From Methylocystis parvus OBBP (GTDB lineage: Bacteria > Pseudomonadota > Alphaproteobacteria > Rhizobiales > Beijerinckiaceae): a stretch of 64,000 nucleotides of DNA. Positions 5,137 through 56,986 of the stretch are shown here, in pieces (position 1 is the first letter of the stretch; the number at the start of each line of letters is the position of its first letter). The stretch spans positions 310,001 to 374,000 of the forward strand of contig NZ_CP092968.1 of NCBI RefSeq assembly GCF_027571405.1, in the 5' to 3' direction. Position numbers and translations under genes: made by a program. The notes beneath the pieces were generated by a model that was given only the letters and a program-made list of their open reading frames with translations, did not search any database and was not told where the DNA came from.

Positions 5137-5427
5137 TCACTCCGGCTTTTTCGCGGTCGCGTCGGTCACGCATTTCTTGGTGAAGCTCTTCTTGGCCGCG
5201 CCTTTCAGTTTCTTTTCCAAGGCCGCCGCGTCGCAGGTCGTCGTGGCCGCGTCGCGCTCGCATTTCTTCATGAAGCTGTTCAGCGCGGCGCCGGCGAGCT
5301 TTTTGTCGGCGGCTTTCGCCGCGCAATCCGGCGCCGGAGCCGGCGCGGACGGCGTCTCCTGGGCTTGCGCGAGGGAGAGGAAGGAAAGGCCGAGAGCAAG
5401 GCCAAGGAAAATGGCGAGCTTCTTCAC
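5137..5427 (-). CDS. PsiF-repeat exported protein
   Basis: A 96-residue protein with a signal peptide and two copies of the PsiF repeat (KKLAGAALNSFMKKC and KKLKGAAKKSFTKKC), separated by a cysteine-containing spacer. PsiF was named as a phosphate-starvation-inducible protein in enterobacteria; its biochemical role is unknown. The GTG at 5427 is preferred because GGAGGCAGTC stands directly before it and it yields a proper signal sequence (KKLAIFLGLALGLSFL). An in-frame start at 5508 would add a long charged leader. The gene converges with the exported-protein gene ending at 5126. Confidence 0.8.
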   Translation of the reverse strand: MKKLAIFLGLALGLSFLSLAQAQETPSAPAPAPDCAAKAADKKLAGAALNSFMKKCERDAATTTCDAAALEKKLKGAAKKSFTKKCVTDATAKKPE

Positions 5428-5548
5428 GACTGCCTCCGTGTTAAACAGGAACTCCTTGAACGCCGAGCGGCGTTCACGGAGCATAGGGGGCGTCGCAAGG
5501 CGCGGCAAGCCGCGTCGCGAGGCCCGCCAAGGGGAGCGAGGGCCATAA

Positions 5549-28286: not shown

Positions 28287-30209
<1,923 letters not shown>

Positions 30210-46763: not shown

Positions 46764-47681
46764 ATGAAGAAAGTCGCTCTTTCGGTCGCCGCTTTGGCGC
46801 TGACCGCCGGCTCCGCGCTCGCCGCGGACCTTCCCTCGCGCAAGGGCCCGCCGGTCCTTCCGCCCCCGCCCCCGCCGCCGCTGTGGACGGGCTTTTATGT
46901 CGGTCTGAACGCCGGCGGCGGCTGGTCCAGCAGCACCACGACCAATGTCGTGACCAGCCCGCTGGGCAATCCGCTCCTGCCGCTGTCGCCGTTCGGCGTT
47001 TCCGAGTGGCTCAACGTCTCGGCCGGCGGCACCGGTTCGCTGTCGAGCGGCAGCAATGGCGGCTTCCTCGGCGGCGGCCAGATCGGCTACAACTATCAGT
47101 TCTACAACAGCTTCGTTGTGGGCCTCGAGGCCGATATCCAGGGCGTCGCGACGAGCGGCAGCGGCCAGTCCGCGCTCACCGTGCTCCCGACGACCTTCGC
47201 CGGCATCAACTCGGTCACCGGCATTTCGGTCTCCAAGAGCCTCGACTATATCGGCACGGTTCGCGGCCGTCTCGGCTGGCTCGCCCTGCCGACCCTGCTG
47301 ATCTACGGCACGGGCGGTCTGGCTTATGGCGGCGTCAACTCGACCACGGGCATCTTCCAGCAGGCCGACGTGCCGTTCGTCGACAATTTCGGCACGACCT
47401 CGGCCGGCGCTTTCTCGGACACGCGCGTTGGCTGGACGGCCGGCGGCGGCGTCGAATGGATGTTCTGGCCGAACTGGTCGGCGAAGGTCGAGTATCTGTA
47501 CTACAACCTCGGCACCGTGACCTACAGCGCCGGCTCCCGTCTGGCCCTGCTCGCGCCCGCCACCCCGCTGTGGGCGCACGCCACGCAGACGTCGACCAGC
47601 TTCAACGGCAACATCGTCCGCGCCGGCGTCAACTATCACTTCAACTGGGGCGCTCCGGCTCCGGTCGTCGCGAAATACTGA
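46764..47681 (+). CDS. Omp31-like porin paralogue 1 of 3
   Basis: A 305-residue outer-membrane barrel protein. The signal peptide (MKKVALSVAALALTAGSALA) is followed by DLPSRKGPP, a polyproline stretch and WTGFYVGLNAGGGW, where the barrel begins. Other barrel landmarks are GGFLGGGQIGYNYQFYN, LDYIGTVRGRLGWL, GTGGLAYGGV, VGWTAGGGVEWMFWPNWSAKVEYLYYNLG and the C-terminal GVNYHFNWGAPAPVVAKY. The three neighbouring copies share signal, polyproline and strand sequences and differ mainly in the surface loops (about 48-90 and 125-160 here). It is followed by its own terminator, so each copy is probably transcribed alone. Confidence 0.9.
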   Translation: MKKVALSVAALALTAGSALAADLPSRKGPPVLPPPPPPPLWTGFYVGLNAGGGWSSSTTTNVVTSPLGNPLLPLSPFGVSEWLNVSAGGTGSLSSGSNGGFLGGGQIGYNYQFYNSFVVGLEADIQGVATSGSGQSALTVLPTTFAGINSVTGISVSKSLDYIGTVRGRLGWLALPTLLIYGTGGLAYGGVNSTTGIFQQADVPFVDNFGTTSAGAFSDTRVGWTAGGGVEWMFWPNWSAKVEYLYYNLGTVTYSAGSRLALLAPATPLWAHATQTSTSFNGNIVRAGVNYHFNWGAPAPVVAKY

Positions 47682-47706
47682 GCGAAATTTACGTTTCGAG
47701 CGAGGA

Positions 47707-47732
47707 GCCCGGCCGCAAGGCCGGGCTTTTTG
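47707..47732 (+). terminator. Terminator of porin 1
   Basis: AGCCCGGCC-GCAA-GGCCGGGCTTTTT: a nine-base stem, tetraloop and T-run 25 bases after the stop codon. The same structure follows porins 2 and 3. Confidence 0.9.
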
Positions 47733-47918
47733 TGTCTTTGGCGCCACAGTCGGCGAAGAAAGCGACGGCGGCGAGGCGAAATTGGCCGTCTTCGCTTTGA
47801 CGTCAGGCGTCTCAGGCCTCAAAACAGTCGACGGCTAGGGAGCGCGTTCCGCGCGTGGTCTTACGGGTTCTTTTAGCGAGGGGCGCTGTTCGCCCTCCGA
47901 ATTAGAGATGAGGCAGGT

Positions 47919-48839
47919 ATGAAAAAGATTGCTCTTTCCCTTGCTGCGCTGGCGGTGACCGCCGGCTCCGCGCTCGCCGCGGACCTTCCCTCGCGCAAGG
48001 GCCCGCCGGTCCTTCCGCCGCCGCCGCCCCCGCCGCCGCTGTGGACGGGCTTCTATGTCGGTCTGAACGCCGGCGGCGGCTGGGCCAACTCGACCGCCAT
48101 CCAGACCGTTGGCGGCCCGCTCGCAGTTGCGAGCCCGCTGGTTAACCCGGCAGGCTTTGTGCCGCTGGCGAACGCTTTCGCCATCGCCGGCAGCTCCTAT
48201 TCGACGGGCGGCAGCAATGGCGGCTTCATCGGCGGCGGCCAGATCGGCTACAACTTCCAGTTCTACAACAACTTCGTTGTGGGCATCGAAGCCGACATCC
48301 AGGGCATCGCCGGTTCGTCGTCAAATTCGGCCCCCAGCTTCTCCGCCGCGCCGGTCATCGGCTTCCCCGGCGAAGTCGTTTCGGGCGCGACGGTTTCCCG
48401 TCGCAACCTCGACTATATCGGTACGGTTCGCGGCCGTCTTGGCTGGCTCGCCACGCCGACTTTGCTGCTTTACGGCACGGGCGGTCTGGCCTATGGCGGC
48501 GTCAGCATGAACACGGCTTGGGTGGGCGTTGAAGCGCCGACCTTCGGCGCCTTCCCCGGTTTCGGCGCGACGGCGTTCTCCGACACGCGCGTGGGCTGGA
48601 CGGCCGGCGGCGGCGTCGAGTGGATGTTCTGGCCGAACTGGTCGGCGAAGGTCGAGTATCTTTACTACGATCTGGGCAATGTGACCGCGAACGGCACCGC
48701 CACGATCGCCGCCCCCGCGGCGCTGATCGCCGCGACCGCCCTTCAGTCGACGACGCATTTCAACGGCAACATCGTCCGCGCCGGCGTCAACTATCACTTC
48801 AACTGGGGCGCTCCGGCTCCGGTCGTCGCGAAATACTGA
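47919..48839 (+). CDS. Omp31-like porin paralogue 2 of 3
   Basis: A 306-residue barrel protein closely related to the copies on either side. The signal peptide (KKIALSLAALAVTAGSALA), an eight-proline run and the barrel strands are almost the same, but the loops are distinct (VGGPLAVASPLVNPAGF, APSFSAAPVIGFPGEVV, VGVEAPTFGAFPGFG). Its 5' leader contains GATGAGGCAGGT before the ATG, as does copy 3. Its downstream segment (TTTGTGTCTTTGGCGCCACAGT) also matches that of copy 1, so the whole transcription unit, not only the coding part, was duplicated. Confidence 0.9.
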   Translation: MKKIALSLAALAVTAGSALAADLPSRKGPPVLPPPPPPPPLWTGFYVGLNAGGGWANSTAIQTVGGPLAVASPLVNPAGFVPLANAFAIAGSSYSTGGSNGGFIGGGQIGYNFQFYNNFVVGIEADIQGIAGSSSNSAPSFSAAPVIGFPGEVVSGATVSRRNLDYIGTVRGRLGWLATPTLLLYGTGGLAYGGVSMNTAWVGVEAPTFGAFPGFGATAFSDTRVGWTAGGGVEWMFWPNWSAKVEYLYYDLGNVTANGTATIAAPAALIAATALQSTTHFNGNIVRAGVNYHFNWGAPAPVVAKY

Positions 48840-48876
48840 GCGAACCGGCTTCCAGCCTGCGGTTCGTCAAAGAAGA

Positions 48877-48904
48877 AAGCCCGGCCGAAAGGCCGGGCTT
48901 TTTG
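48877..48904 (+). terminator. Terminator of porin 2
   Basis: AAAGCCCGGCC-GAAA-GGCCGGGCTTTTT, 40 bases after the stop codon; a GAAA tetraloop hairpin with a T-run. Confidence 0.9.
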
Positions 48905-49090
48905 TGTCTTTGGCGCCACAGTTGGCGAGAAAGGGGCGGCAGTAAGGCGAAAGCGTCCCCCTTTGCTTTGACTATGCGCGTCTCAAGCCTCAGAACCGGG
49001 GCGGATCAAAGGAGCGTTCTTCGCGCCCGGGTCCAAGGGTTCTTCGAGCGAGGCGGACTGATCGTCCTCTGAGTTAAAGATGAGGCAGGT

Positions 49091-50038
49091 ATGAAAAAGT
49101 TTGCTCTTTCGTTTGCTGCGCTGGCGTTGACCGCCGGCTCCGCGCTCGCCGCGGACCTTCCCTCGCGCAAGGGCCCGCCGGTCCTTCCGCCGCCGCCCCC
49201 GCCGCCGCTGTGGACGGGCTTCTATGTTGGTCTGAACGCCGGCGGCGGCTGGGCCAGCAGCAACTCCGTCACCATCGGCTCCACGCCGATCTTCACGAAT
49301 CCGGCCGGCCCGGCCGCCGGCATCATCGCCGCTCACGCCGGCCCGGCGGCGCTCAGCGCTTCGGGCATCATCGGCGGCGGCAATAATGGCGGCTTTATCG
49401 GTGGCGGCCAGATCGGCTACAACTACCAGTTCTACAACAACTTCCTGGTTGGCATCGAAGCCGACATCCAGGGCGTTGCGGCGAGCGGCGGCAGCCGCAC
49501 CGGCGCTGGCGCCGCTCTTGTCGGTCCCGGTTCGGGCGCGACGGGCACGCCGATCACCACCTCCTTCTCGGTTTCTCAGAGCCTCGACTATATCGGCACG
49601 GTTCGCGGTCGCCTCGGCTGGCTGGCGACCCCGACGCTGCTCGTCTACGGCACGGGCGGTCTGGCCTATGGCGGCGTAAGCTCGTCGGCGGCCTATTTCT
49701 CGACGAACCCGGCCTATCCGGCGCTCTCGGGGCTGTCGGCCGCCTGGGGTTCGGCTGGCGCCTTCTCCGACACGCGCGTCGGCTGGACGGCCGGCGGCGG
49801 CGTCGAGTGGATGTTCATGCCGAACTGGTCCGCGAAAGTCGAATATCTGTATTTCGATCTCGGCTCGGTGACGTACAATCTCGCGCCGACGGGCTCGATC
49901 GCCTTGGCCGGCCCGGTTGGCCAGCCCTGGTGGCTGAACGCCTCGCAGGTGAGCGCGCGCTTCAACGGCAATATCGTCCGCGCGGGCGCGAACTACCACT
50001 TCAACTGGGCGGCTGCCCCGGTTGTTGCGAAATACTAA
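49091..50038 (+). CDS. Omp31-like porin paralogue 3 of 3
   Basis: A 315-residue barrel protein, the longest of the three. The signal peptide (KKFALSFAALALTAGSALA) and strands match the other copies. The loops are the most extended and rich in Ala/Gly/Pro (IFTNPAGPAAGIIAAHAGPA, SGGSRTGAGAALVGPGSG, STNPAYPALSGLSAAWG). The C-terminus is GANYHFNWAAAPVVAKY. GATGAGGCAGGT precedes the ATG. Loop differences among the copies suggest selection for surface variation or altered pore behaviour. Confidence 0.9.
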   Translation: MKKFALSFAALALTAGSALAADLPSRKGPPVLPPPPPPPLWTGFYVGLNAGGGWASSNSVTIGSTPIFTNPAGPAAGIIAAHAGPAALSASGIIGGGNNGGFIGGGQIGYNYQFYNNFLVGIEADIQGVAASGGSRTGAGAALVGPGSGATGTPITTSFSVSQSLDYIGTVRGRLGWLATPTLLVYGTGGLAYGGVSSSAAYFSTNPAYPALSGLSAAWGSAGAFSDTRVGWTAGGGVEWMFMPNWSAKVEYLYFDLGSVTYNLAPTGSIALAGPVGQPWWLNASQVSARFNGNIVRAGANYHFNWAAAPVVAKY

Positions 50039-52408: not shown

Positions 52409-53872
52409 TCAAGCGATTGCTTGAAGCTTGGCTTTCAGGTCGCCAATTTCCGTCTCCGCGCGAATCTGGTCGGTGACGTCATATTGCACGCCCAGGAAGT
52501 AGATGAGCTTGCCTTGGGCGTCGAAAAGCGGCGTGACGTTCAGCTTGTTGTAGAAGAGGGTTCCGCTCTTCCGGTAATTGCGCAAGATCACGTCGACCGG
52601 CTGCCGGTTCCTGATCGCTTCGCGCAACCGCCGAAGTCCTTCCTGGTCGCGGTCCTCCGCCTGCAGGAAGCGGCAATTGCGGCCGATAATCTCTTCGGGG
52701 TCGTAGCCGGTAATGAGTTCGAATCGTTTGTTCGCATAGACGATTGGGGCGTCGTCGAGGTCGGGATCGGCCAGGGTCACGCCGTTGACGCAGCTATCGA
52801 GAATAGTCGTGAGGATTTCCGGGATGATCTCCGACTCTTTCCGCACCGAAAACATCTGCGCCTTGGGTTGGCTCCTCGCCTTCGCCCAGATCCGGTAAGC
52901 TGAGGGAGCCATCCCGGCGTAACGACGGAAGGCGCGGCGAAAGCTCGCCTCGTCGATAAAGCCGGCGCTGGCCGCGAGCTTCTTCACCGGCTTGGCGCTG
53001 GTCTCGAGAAGCGTGCGCGCGGTTTCGACGCGAATGCGATCGATGAAAGTCTTGGGCGACTCGCCGCATGCCTGCTTCAATCTGCGATGCAGCGTGCGTT
53101 CGGAAGTCGAGAGCGCCTTTGCGAGATCCTGTGCGTTGAACGCGGCGTCGGATTGTCTGACGATCCGCTCGGCGTCGGCGAGAAAAGCGTCCGCGCCGCC
53201 GCTGAGCACATTCGGCGTATATGCCGCGCCGCGCGCGGCGCCTCTGGCGGGCGCCGCTTCGCCCAGCGTGAAATCCGCCGCGATGCGTCCCGCTTCCTGG
53301 CCGCAGAGCGTGCGGATGACGTGCAATCCGACGTCGATCCAGGAGAGAGGGCCAGCGGCGGTGACGACGCGCCGGTCGTCGATGAGGCGCGCGCCCCATG
53401 CTGTGTCGGCGCGTGGATAACGTTTCTTCAGGTCTTCATGGTGCCACCAGCTCGTCGTGCAGCGGCGTCCCTCGAGCAGACCCGCTTCGCCGAGAAGAAA
53501 GACGCCCGATCCGCAACCGCCGATCAGCGCGCCGCGCGAGTGATGGCGCCGCAGCCATGCCGCCGCGGCGGCGAATGCGGACATTTCCGGCGCCCTGCCG
53601 TCGGCTTCGGGCGCGAAGCTCGGAACGATGACCGCGTCGCAGAGGGCGATCTCGTCGAACGACGCCTTTACGTCGAGAGCGCCGCCGGCTCCGTCGCGGA
53701 CCGGCCGGCCGCCGGCGCTGGCCGTGACGACCTGAAAATCCGGCGCGCCCACGGTATCGCCCGGCGGAATCGCCGCCAATATTGCGCGGCGCGCGAGCGT
53801 GAGAAGATCGGAAAGGCCGAGGAACGCGGACCCCAGACACCCGTCCAATCCGACGATGACGATCTTGATCAT
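52409..53872 (-). CDS. DJ-1/PfpI - AraC - LOV three-domain transcriptional regulator (putative blue-light sensor)
   Basis: A 487-residue protein. Residues 2-190 form a DJ-1/PfpI (GlxA-type) domain with the elbow cysteine in IGGCGSGVFLLGEAGLL. Residues about 230-330 are an AraC DNA-binding domain (LAKALSTSERTLHRRLKQACGESPKTFIDRIRVETARTLLE, then AASAGFIDEASFRRAFRRYAGMAPSAYR). Residues about 355-470 are a LOV photosensor: the flavin-adduct cysteine C400 lies in the canonical GRNCRFLQ, the FMN contacts N432 and N442 are in NYRKSGTLFYN, and Q463 is in the final GVQYDVTDQ. All core LOV residues are present, so light-driven cysteinyl-flavin adduct formation is expected. A GTG nine bases upstream is an alternative start; GAGGAGG abuts the ATG. 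GlxA-AraC proteins are common, but a C-terminal LOV on one is unusual. Target genes are unknown; it is divergent from ftsH copy 2. Confidence 0.88.
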   Translation of the reverse strand: MIKIVIVGLDGCLGSAFLGLSDLLTLARRAILAAIPPGDTVGAPDFQVVTASAGGRPVRDGAGGALDVKASFDEIALCDAVIVPSFAPEADGRAPEMSAFAAAAAWLRRHHSRGALIGGCGSGVFLLGEAGLLEGRRCTTSWWHHEDLKKRYPRADTAWGARLIDDRRVVTAAGPLSWIDVGLHVIRTLCGQEAGRIAADFTLGEAAPARGAARGAAYTPNVLSGGADAFLADAERIVRQSDAAFNAQDLAKALSTSERTLHRRLKQACGESPKTFIDRIRVETARTLLETSAKPVKKLAASAGFIDEASFRRAFRRYAGMAPSAYRIWAKARSQPKAQMFSVRKESEIIPEILTTILDSCVNGVTLADPDLDDAPIVYANKRFELITGYDPEEIIGRNCRFLQAEDRDQEGLRRLREAIRNRQPVDVILRNYRKSGTLFYNKLNVTPLFDAQGKLIYFLGVQYDVTDQIRAETEIGDLKAKLQAIA

Positions 53873-54056
53873 CCTCCTCACCGAATTCTTTTTTTTGGCG
53901 AATTATGGACTCGATTTGGCTATTTCGCCATCCTGACCTAGGATGACCCCAACCTCATCTTGGGAAAAGGCGAGGGCATCCGTCCTCCGCCCAATGATGT
54001 AATCCGAGCGATGACGTTGTCAGAATTTCTGCGAGGTCACGCCCTAGGAGGTGGAA

Positions 54057-55979
<1,923 letters not shown>

Positions 55980-56203: not shown

Positions 56204-56986
56204 ATGAGCTCGACGACTAGCGCAGCTGCTGGCGCAGCTGCTGGCGCAGCTGCTGAGGTAGAGTCCGTAGTCGATCTGCGTGGCATGTGGATTGGCTTGG
56301 CTCTGCTGAACACGTTTTATCTGATCGTGCGCATTTACGAGCAGATCTATGGCTGGCGCGCCGGCCTTGATTCGTTCGCGCCGGAGTTCCAGACCTACTG
56401 GATGTCGATCCTTTGGACCGAGATCCCGCTTGAGCTGGTTTCGGGCCTTGGCCTCGCCGGCTATCTGTGGAAGACGCGCGACCGCAACGTCGACGCGGTT
56501 TCGCCGCGCGAAGAGATGCGCCGCCTGGTCGTTCTGGTGCAGTGGCTCGTCGTTTACGGCATCGCCATTTACTGGGGCGCGTCGTTCTTCACGGAGCAGG
56601 ACGGCACCTGGCACATGACGGTGATTCGCGACACGGACTTCACGCCGTCGCACATCATCGAGTTCTACATGAGCTACCCGATTTATTCGGTGATCGCGGT
56701 TGGCGCGTTCTTCTATGCGAAGACCCGCATTCCGTATTTCGCTCATGGCTACTCGCTGGCGTTCCTGATCGTGGCCATTGGCCCGTTCATGATCATCCCG
56801 AACGTTGGCCTGAACGAGTGGGGCCACACCTTCTGGTTCATGGAAGAGCTGTTCGTGGCTCCGCTGCATTGGGGCTTCGTGTTCTTCGGCTGGATGGCGC
56901 TGGGCGTGTTCGGCGTGGTTCTGCAGATCCTGATGCGCATCCATGCGCTGGTCGGCAAGGAAGGCGTCGCCCTCCTCACCGAGTAA
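56204..56986 (+). CDS. pmoC: Particulate methane monooxygenase subunit C (stand-alone)
   Basis: A 260-residue integral membrane protein of the PmoC/AmoC family, with six or more helices. The copper-site residues are conserved: D133, H137 and H150 (EQDGTWHMTVIRDTDFTPSH), which match D156, H160 and H173 of the Methylococcus enzyme, and the second-site N-x3-H in GLNEWGH. Other hallmarks are MSILWTEIPLELVSG and FWFMEELFVAPLHWGFVFFGW. GGAGGAGTTGACTA precedes the ATG. No pmoA or pmoB follows, so this is one of the monocistronic pmoC copies known in type II methanotrophs. The first 20 residues contain an Ala/Gly repeat. Assembly with PmoAB from another locus, or a role in assembly or copper handling, are the options. 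Confidence 0.96.
   Translation: MSSTTSAAAGAAAGAAAEVESVVDLRGMWIGLALLNTFYLIVRIYEQIYGWRAGLDSFAPEFQTYWMSILWTEIPLELVSGLGLAGYLWKTRDRNVDAVSPREEMRRLVVLVQWLVVYGIAIYWGASFFTEQDGTWHMTVIRDTDFTPSHIIEFYMSYPIYSVIAVGAFFYAKTRIPYFAHGYSLAFLIVAIGPFMIIPNVGLNEWGHTFWFMEELFVAPLHWGFVFFGWMALGVFGVVLQILMRIHALVGKEGVALLTE
56222..56257 (+). repeat. 12-bp tandem repeat in the 5' end of pmoC
   Basis: Three copies of GCAGCTGCTGGC encode the AAGA units in the cytoplasmic N-terminus of PmoC. The tract is slippage-prone and probably differs in length between strains. Confidence 0.85.

Follow-up and report, generated by a model that had tools for sequence, protein, structure and literature searches.

The window, that is, the whole 64,000-nucleotide stretch of DNA that was analysed, encodes a protein, LOV-TF, which is probably a flavin-binding, blue-light-gated one-component regulator of its own promoter, of the divergent ftsH gene and of a lone pmoC gene located behind ftsH. 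Its DNA binding, light dependence, regulatory sign and purpose are what we infer; the model is supported by the domain architecture, residue conservation, synteny, operator-like repeats and linkage of LOV-less paralogues to pmoC. Architecture and photochemistry are already known, LOV-TF being a further member of a published protein kind (PMC4416707, in its available text). The association of LOV-TF with ftsH and lone pmoC through a shared repeat was not found in print in open-licence PMC, where no paper connects LOV-TF, or a methanotroph AraC protein, to pmoC or ftsH. An earlier, sequence-only reading of this DNA likewise mentions neither the pmoC that stands alone behind ftsH, nor the shared operator-like repeat, nor the link between paralogues and pmoC.

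A LOV domain joined to a GlxA-type AraC regulator

As the sequence-only reading had claimed, translation gives a single frame that runs from ATG to stop without a break and carries three Pfam domains, all scoring above their curated cutoffs:

52409..53872, minus strand: LOV-TF, orthologue of McLOV-TF; DJ-1/PfpI, AraC HTH and LOV domains, 487 aa
53315..53764, minus strand: DJ-1/PfpI domain, residues 37–186; Pfam DJ-1_PfpI, 46 bits (cutoff 26.6)
52892..53125, minus strand: AraC HTH_18 domain, residues 250–327; Pfam, 83.7 bits (cutoff 33.6)
52469..52783, minus strand: LOV core, residues 364–468; Pfam PAS_9, 78.1 bits (cutoff 27)
52673..52675, minus strand: codon of the adduct cysteine, Cys400; Cys in 94 of 95 alignment rows

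The first two domains reproduce the GlxA/FtrA-type layout, in which a two-HTH AraC domain comes after the DJ-1/PfpI domain. Residues 47–329 match the NCBIfam model of FtrA (GlxA-type) with 145 bits against an equivalog cutoff of 425; judged by its sequence, LOV-TF is a relative of FtrA and not FtrA itself. LOV-less relatives of this type share the DJ-1/PfpI and AraC domains but stop after the latter (P0101, P0102 and P0104–P0121, 325–346 aa, among the matches listed), and the paralogues encoded in the same genome are 52–53% identical to LOV-TF. An enzymatic role of the DJ-1 domain was rejected, Cys120 being present in only 69 of 95 rows.

The LOV N-cap begins at about residue 351. The top NCBIfam match of the whole protein is the LOV half of YtvA_fam (residues 354–484, E value of 2e-44, 152 bits), which together with the PAS_9 score confirms the assignment of the C-terminal PAS domain. 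The match falls short of the equivalog cutoff for the full-length model (250), which is no surprise for a LOV domain that sits on a different protein. The LOV part is closest in sequence to Pseudomonas short LOV proteins, and the best sequence relatives in the PDB are the short LOV proteins 7r5n, 3sw1 and 7a6p (E value of ∼1e-31). A Foldseek search with the AlphaFold model of LOV-TF (34 sequences; mean pLDDT 80.7) ranks PpSB2-LOV first and a DJ-1-fold isocyanide hydratase lower down; with a pTM of 0.46, the packing of the domains is uncertain. Classification as a short LOV protein was rejected because effector domains are present (Pfam), and classification as an EL222-type LOV-HTH protein because the HTH is of the AraC rather than the LuxR/GerE type.

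The protein search scored 7,988 candidates and listed the best 120 of 495 matches. All three domains occur in at least 94 matches (precomputed Pfam list; 94 among the best 120 of 495 matches), the lowest identity among these 94 listed matches being ∼56%. One of them, P0002, is the window's own protein, which is thus counted twice in the 95-row alignment of the 94 matches with P0001. LOV domains contact their flavin through two asparagines and a glutamine. LOV-TF shows a PAS fold with the cysteine set within G-x-N-C-R-F-L-Q, together with N432, N442 and Q463; Cys400 is kept in 94 of the 95 rows and the other three residues in all of them, so that the photochemical set is intact at the positions first claimed. 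The N-cap is equally well preserved (P351, 94/95; D359, 95/95; C361, 94/95; T366, 95/95). In P0089, glycine replaces the adduct cysteine and the remaining LOV motif is kept; an adduct is therefore not possible there.

The named organisms among the matches listed belong to Methylocystis, except for one Hyphomicrobiales metagenome-assembled genome (P0031). Among 397 family genomes from 43 genera, full-length LOV-TF is restricted to this genus, where it occurs in 21 genomes; a further genome, G034, carries the gene split over two contigs. In another genus of the family (G239, C52:3646–4101), a 163-aa LOV frame is 70% identical to the LOV domain of LOV-TF. The proposed methanotroph host is corroborated by pmoCAB operons in the same genome and by a protein labelled Methylocystis parvus that is 88% identical to LOV-TF.

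The architecture, which the sequence-only reading did not know to be described, received a name in 2015 together with measurements of its LOV domain, and its novelty is thereby ruled out (PMC4416707). The domain-architecture search suggested at that stage recovered the triad in at least 94 matches, of a kind that was already published. According to the available text of that paper, El-Arab, Pudasaini and Zoltowski described in Methylocystis the transcription factor McLOV-TF, in which the LOV domain is C-terminal to an amidotransferase-like domain and an HTH; a fragment of residues 337–490 binds flavin, bleaches in blue light and recovers with a time constant of 130 s, and the full-length protein is insoluble (PMC4416707). 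The isolated LOV domain is dimeric already in the dark, and light-driven dimerisation is therefore not established. McLOV-TF and LOV-TF share genus, domain order and N-cap elements, and residues 337–490 correspond to the LOV part here; the equivalence of the N-cap residues (Pro, Asp, Cys and Thr near the flavin) derives from the paper's text, not its alignment figure. That available text names no target and contains no occurrence of ftsH, pmoC, methane or operon (PMC4416707).

Two other systems join a LOV and a DNA-binding domain in one protein. EL222 differs from LOV-TF in the family of its HTH, which is LuxR-type, and in having the LOV domain placed first, and the engineered BLADE, which combines an AraC DNA-binding domain with LOV as LOV-TF does, is man-made and has no DJ-1 domain (available text of PMC9614035).

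The N-cap cysteine was likened by El-Arab et al. to that of fungal ENV1, said to couple light and oxidative stress (PMC4416707, available text). This likeness and the presence of Cys361 in 94 of 95 rows speak for a LOV module that is mainly a redox or oxidative-stress sensor, in which the flavin and Cys361 would adjust ftsH and pmoC to the redox state. We consider this distinctly unlikely, given that Cys400 and the flavin-contacting residues are conserved equally tightly and that the LOV domain of the orthologue bleaches in blue light.

El-Arab et al. also proposed that McLOV-TF competes with a short LOV protein (PMC4416707, available text), which by pairing with LOV-TF would dampen it. Across 39 genomes of the genus, 17 encode both proteins, 5 LOV-TF alone, 5 a short LOV protein alone and 12 neither, a co-occurrence in favour of this proposal (Fisher p value of 0.004 for all genomes and of 0.007 for the 30 better ones, kinship being ignored). 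However, a search of this genome at E≤1e-10 turned up no counterpart of the short LOV protein with which McLOV-TF is paired, and competition was rejected for this genome; short LOV is missing from 5 of the 22 LOV-TF genomes, and the operator-like repeat described below occurs in 0 of 13 short-LOV promoters. Competitive dimerisation thus appears highly improbable. An 863-residue frame at L004, part of an 885-aa multi-PAS ORF, lacks the N-x-R-[FIML]-L motif. The short-LOV loci L107, L109, L110, L112–L114, L116 and L117 are mostly preceded by a small gene with repeated W-C-P/T-Q-V-V-E-L-E, and mostly have nearby a membrane-protein gene with K-x-S-F-[AS]-T-N-[AT]-[GS]-A-F.

The ftsH–pmoC neighbourhood and its direct repeats

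The neighbours assigned by the sequence-only reading, LuxR, LuxI and a divergent ftsH, are as claimed. On the ftsH side, the following features were identified:

53896..53920, plus strand: candidate operator, direct repeat 1, TGGC-N17-TGGC, between LOV-TF and ftsH
53916..53944, plus strand: possible ftsH promoter, TTGGCT-N17-TAGGAT, found by eye; overlaps the second half-site
54057..55979, plus strand: ftsH, membrane AAA+ protease; second ftsH of the genome
56087..56111, plus strand: candidate operator, direct repeat 2, upstream of the lone pmoC
56204..56986, plus strand: lone pmoC (particulate methane monooxygenase subunit C); Pfam AmoC, 362 bits

In all 20 loci (18 fetched genus loci, L089–L106, the window and L171), LOV-TF and ftsH stand head-to-head. 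This constancy and the repeat in the shared intergenic region uphold ftsH as the candidate target already suggested from the sequence. pmoC lies directly behind ftsH in 9 of the 11 loci with enough flank (the window and L090–L097, pmoC of L097 being cut by a contig end); in the remaining LOV-TF loci ftsH is itself truncated by the end of the contig. The two exceptions count against the model: in L089 (G002) the next pmoC is 5.3 kb beyond ftsH, and in G034 (L035, same contig as L171) there is none within 5.9 kb. The lone pmoC of the window is identical to the two pmoCAB1 copies of the genome, save for a 4-residue insertion near the N terminus. Another ftsH (28290–30209, minus strand), 89–90% identical to the pmoC-linked one, lies 24 kb away in the window; no repeat was found in the 400 bp upstream of it.

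Lone spare subunits of this kind have a counterpart in ammonia oxidisers, where AmoC3 is a lone stress-response membrane subunit of the related monooxygenase; we know of no LOV regulator accompanying AmoC3. The same pairing of ftsH with a monocistronic pmoC as in the window is reported in Methylocystis SC2 and Rockwell, with screening of pMMO folding as its guessed role (PMC3794950, available text). Regulation is not considered there, and neither AraC nor LOV occurs in the main text of that paper.

Repeat 1 is a 21-bp direct repeat present in 18 of 18 unique LOV-TF/ftsH intergenic regions (19 sequences), where any other TGGC spacing occurs in at most one. It lies within a conserved 52-bp block with a mean conservation of 0.87, compared with 0.39 for the 20 bp on one side and 0.62 for 96 bp on the opposite side. 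An extended form is found in 17 of the 18 regions and has a rate of ∼0.01 per 175 bases on one strand of the fetched sequence (the sites themselves included), and a longer pattern of repeat 1 is unique in the genome at up to three mismatches. Its second half-site overlaps the possible −35 element of ftsH; the promoter scan did not call an ftsH promoter, its sole call being on the other strand. Repeat 2 ends 92 bp upstream of pmoC and is present in 9 of 9 LOV-TF loci in which the ftsH–pmoC gap was read, as well as in L121. AraC sites have a direct-repeat geometry of about 21 bp. The predicted sites described here show this geometry, a direct repeat with 21-bp spacing at a promoter.

Searched with a degenerate pattern, the 4.53-Mb genome yields 13 matches against one for the reversed control, a count that is partly circular because the pattern was derived from these very sites. 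Four of the 13 fall within two pmoC-locus stretches, namely repeats 1 and 2 and a pair at 3006265–3006324 in a paralogue–pmoC intergenic region. Six of the other nine were inspected (all except L186, L187 and L194); four are in predicted ORFs, and L193 and L195 are outside. The pmoCAB operons were rejected as targets, as none of the 10 upstream stretches read (including six operon pmoC, three lone pmoC and one ftsH) contains the repeat within 600 bp.

LOV-less paralogues and loci that lack LOV-TF

Two LOV-less paralogues in this genome adjoin two other pmoC genes. Throughout the genus, in a survey of at most three scored candidates per genome, 27 of 36 LOV-less paralogues have a pmoC no more than 500 bp away; 23 of them stand head-to-head with it and four point at it. 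The same 21-bp repeat is present in 16 of 18 unique paralogue–pmoC head-to-head intergenic regions (23 loci); inspected by eye, those of L141 and L149 do not contain it. In its AraC domain, LOV-TF is 57–62% identical to three of the paralogues. At L140, ftsH follows the paralogue-linked pmoC, and gene positions suggest further loci of this arrangement. Among named loci, pmoC adjoins 8 of 9 LOV-less relatives from Methylocystis or Methylocystaceae; no pmoC was seen in the flanks examined of the Methylocystaceae metagenome-assembled genome L014 or of the named loci outside Methylocystis that encode LOV-less relatives (L020–L022 and L024–L033), and the link is therefore not general to all relatives.

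Loci without LOV-TF show that the repeat does not strictly follow this protein. In L121 (G005), remnants matching residues 3–59 and 418–486 of LOV-TF persist at 5143–5496, ftsH–pmoC is intact and both repeats are kept; L164 retains repeat 1 with no LOV-TF match left, and L165 and L170 have the repeat before ftsH with no LOV-TF. In L122 and L123, LOV-TF is gone, the ftsH–pmoC order is kept and the block survives as a near-match whose first half-site reads AGGC. L163 is also without the repeat, and these last three loci may reflect one loss event. Repeat 2 is absent from the ftsH–pmoC gaps of L122, L123, L127 and L163, L127 being a different locus with a tilS-like-linked ftsH. Overall, the repeat occurs in 1 of 10 ftsH copies with pmoC but without LOV-TF (L121), and in 2 of 17 other ftsH copies adjoining neither gene (L163 and L164 left out). 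That loss of LOV-TF always entails loss of the repeats was rejected as a rule, since L121 and L164 retain repeat 1. Persistence or occurrence of the repeat without LOV-TF (L121, L164, L165 and L170) means that its presence does not prove binding by LOV-TF; by its distribution, the repeat looks like an operator of a regulator family that includes LOV-TF, not dependent on LOV-TF alone.

These loci bear on the possibility that the gene order is merely inherited, LOV-TF regulating distant genes and the block being the ftsH core promoter or the site of another factor, for example a LOV-less paralogue. The near-match block and ftsH–pmoC order in L122 and L123, and the repeats of L165 and L170, speak for it. 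It is nevertheless unlikely: the head-to-head pair is constant whereas genes further out vary between loci, the same 21-bp repeat lies between a paralogue and a different pmoC, and other ftsH copies mostly have no repeat.

Predicted light control of ftsH and lone pmoC

In the model that we favour, blue light would form a Cys400–FMN adduct in the C-terminal LOV domain, and the resulting change would pass through the N-cap to the preceding AraC domain, a short signal path since the N-cap stands close behind that domain. A LOV-TF dimer would then occupy the 21-bp direct-repeat operators differently, its local targets being the LOV-TF promoter, the divergent ftsH and the lone pmoC. For the isolated LOV domain of the orthologue, binding of flavin, bleaching in blue light and dimer formation have been shown (PMC4416707, available text).

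The likeliest purpose would be membrane-protein turnover and PmoC supply for particulate methane monooxygenase (pMMO) in the light, perhaps pMMO repair. FtsH removes membrane proteins and serves the repair of photosystem II D1. This known work and reports of light inhibiting methanotrophy lead us to infer a role in pMMO upkeep; inhibition is described for lakes in some reports and stimulation in others (PMC7362727, available text). A more specific scheme, analogous to D1 repair, is a light-triggered repair cycle in which blue light, through the LOV-AraC regulator, would switch on a dedicated FtsH that removes damaged PmoC and the nearly identical spare PmoC that replaces it; the regulator would have arisen by fusion of a LOV domain to a member of the GlxA-type family whose genes accompany lone pmoC in Methylocystis. 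We put this cycle forward tentatively, as possible rather than probable.

The locus thereby joins a published photoreceptor-regulator without a found target, lone pmoC–ftsH pairs of unproven function and the effects of light on methanotrophy, and ftsH, lone pmoC and their shared repeat make the target question testable. Should light prove to control the locus, there would be a deletable and testable regulator of methane oxidation in lit waters, and LOV-TF would be a natural counterpart, with a candidate operator, of engineered AraC-LOV switches.

The quorum-sensing genes, also put forward as a target by the sequence-only reading, fare poorly: 5 of the 18 fetched loci (L096, L099, L101, L103 and L106) have no lux match, and no TGGC-N17-TGGC repeat was found in the 400 bp upstream of luxR. 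Also upstream of luxR, three tandem genes for β-barrel outer-membrane proteins with an N-terminal proline run occupy positions 46764–50038 of the window, and similar β-barrel genes stand at the same place in many of the fetched loci.
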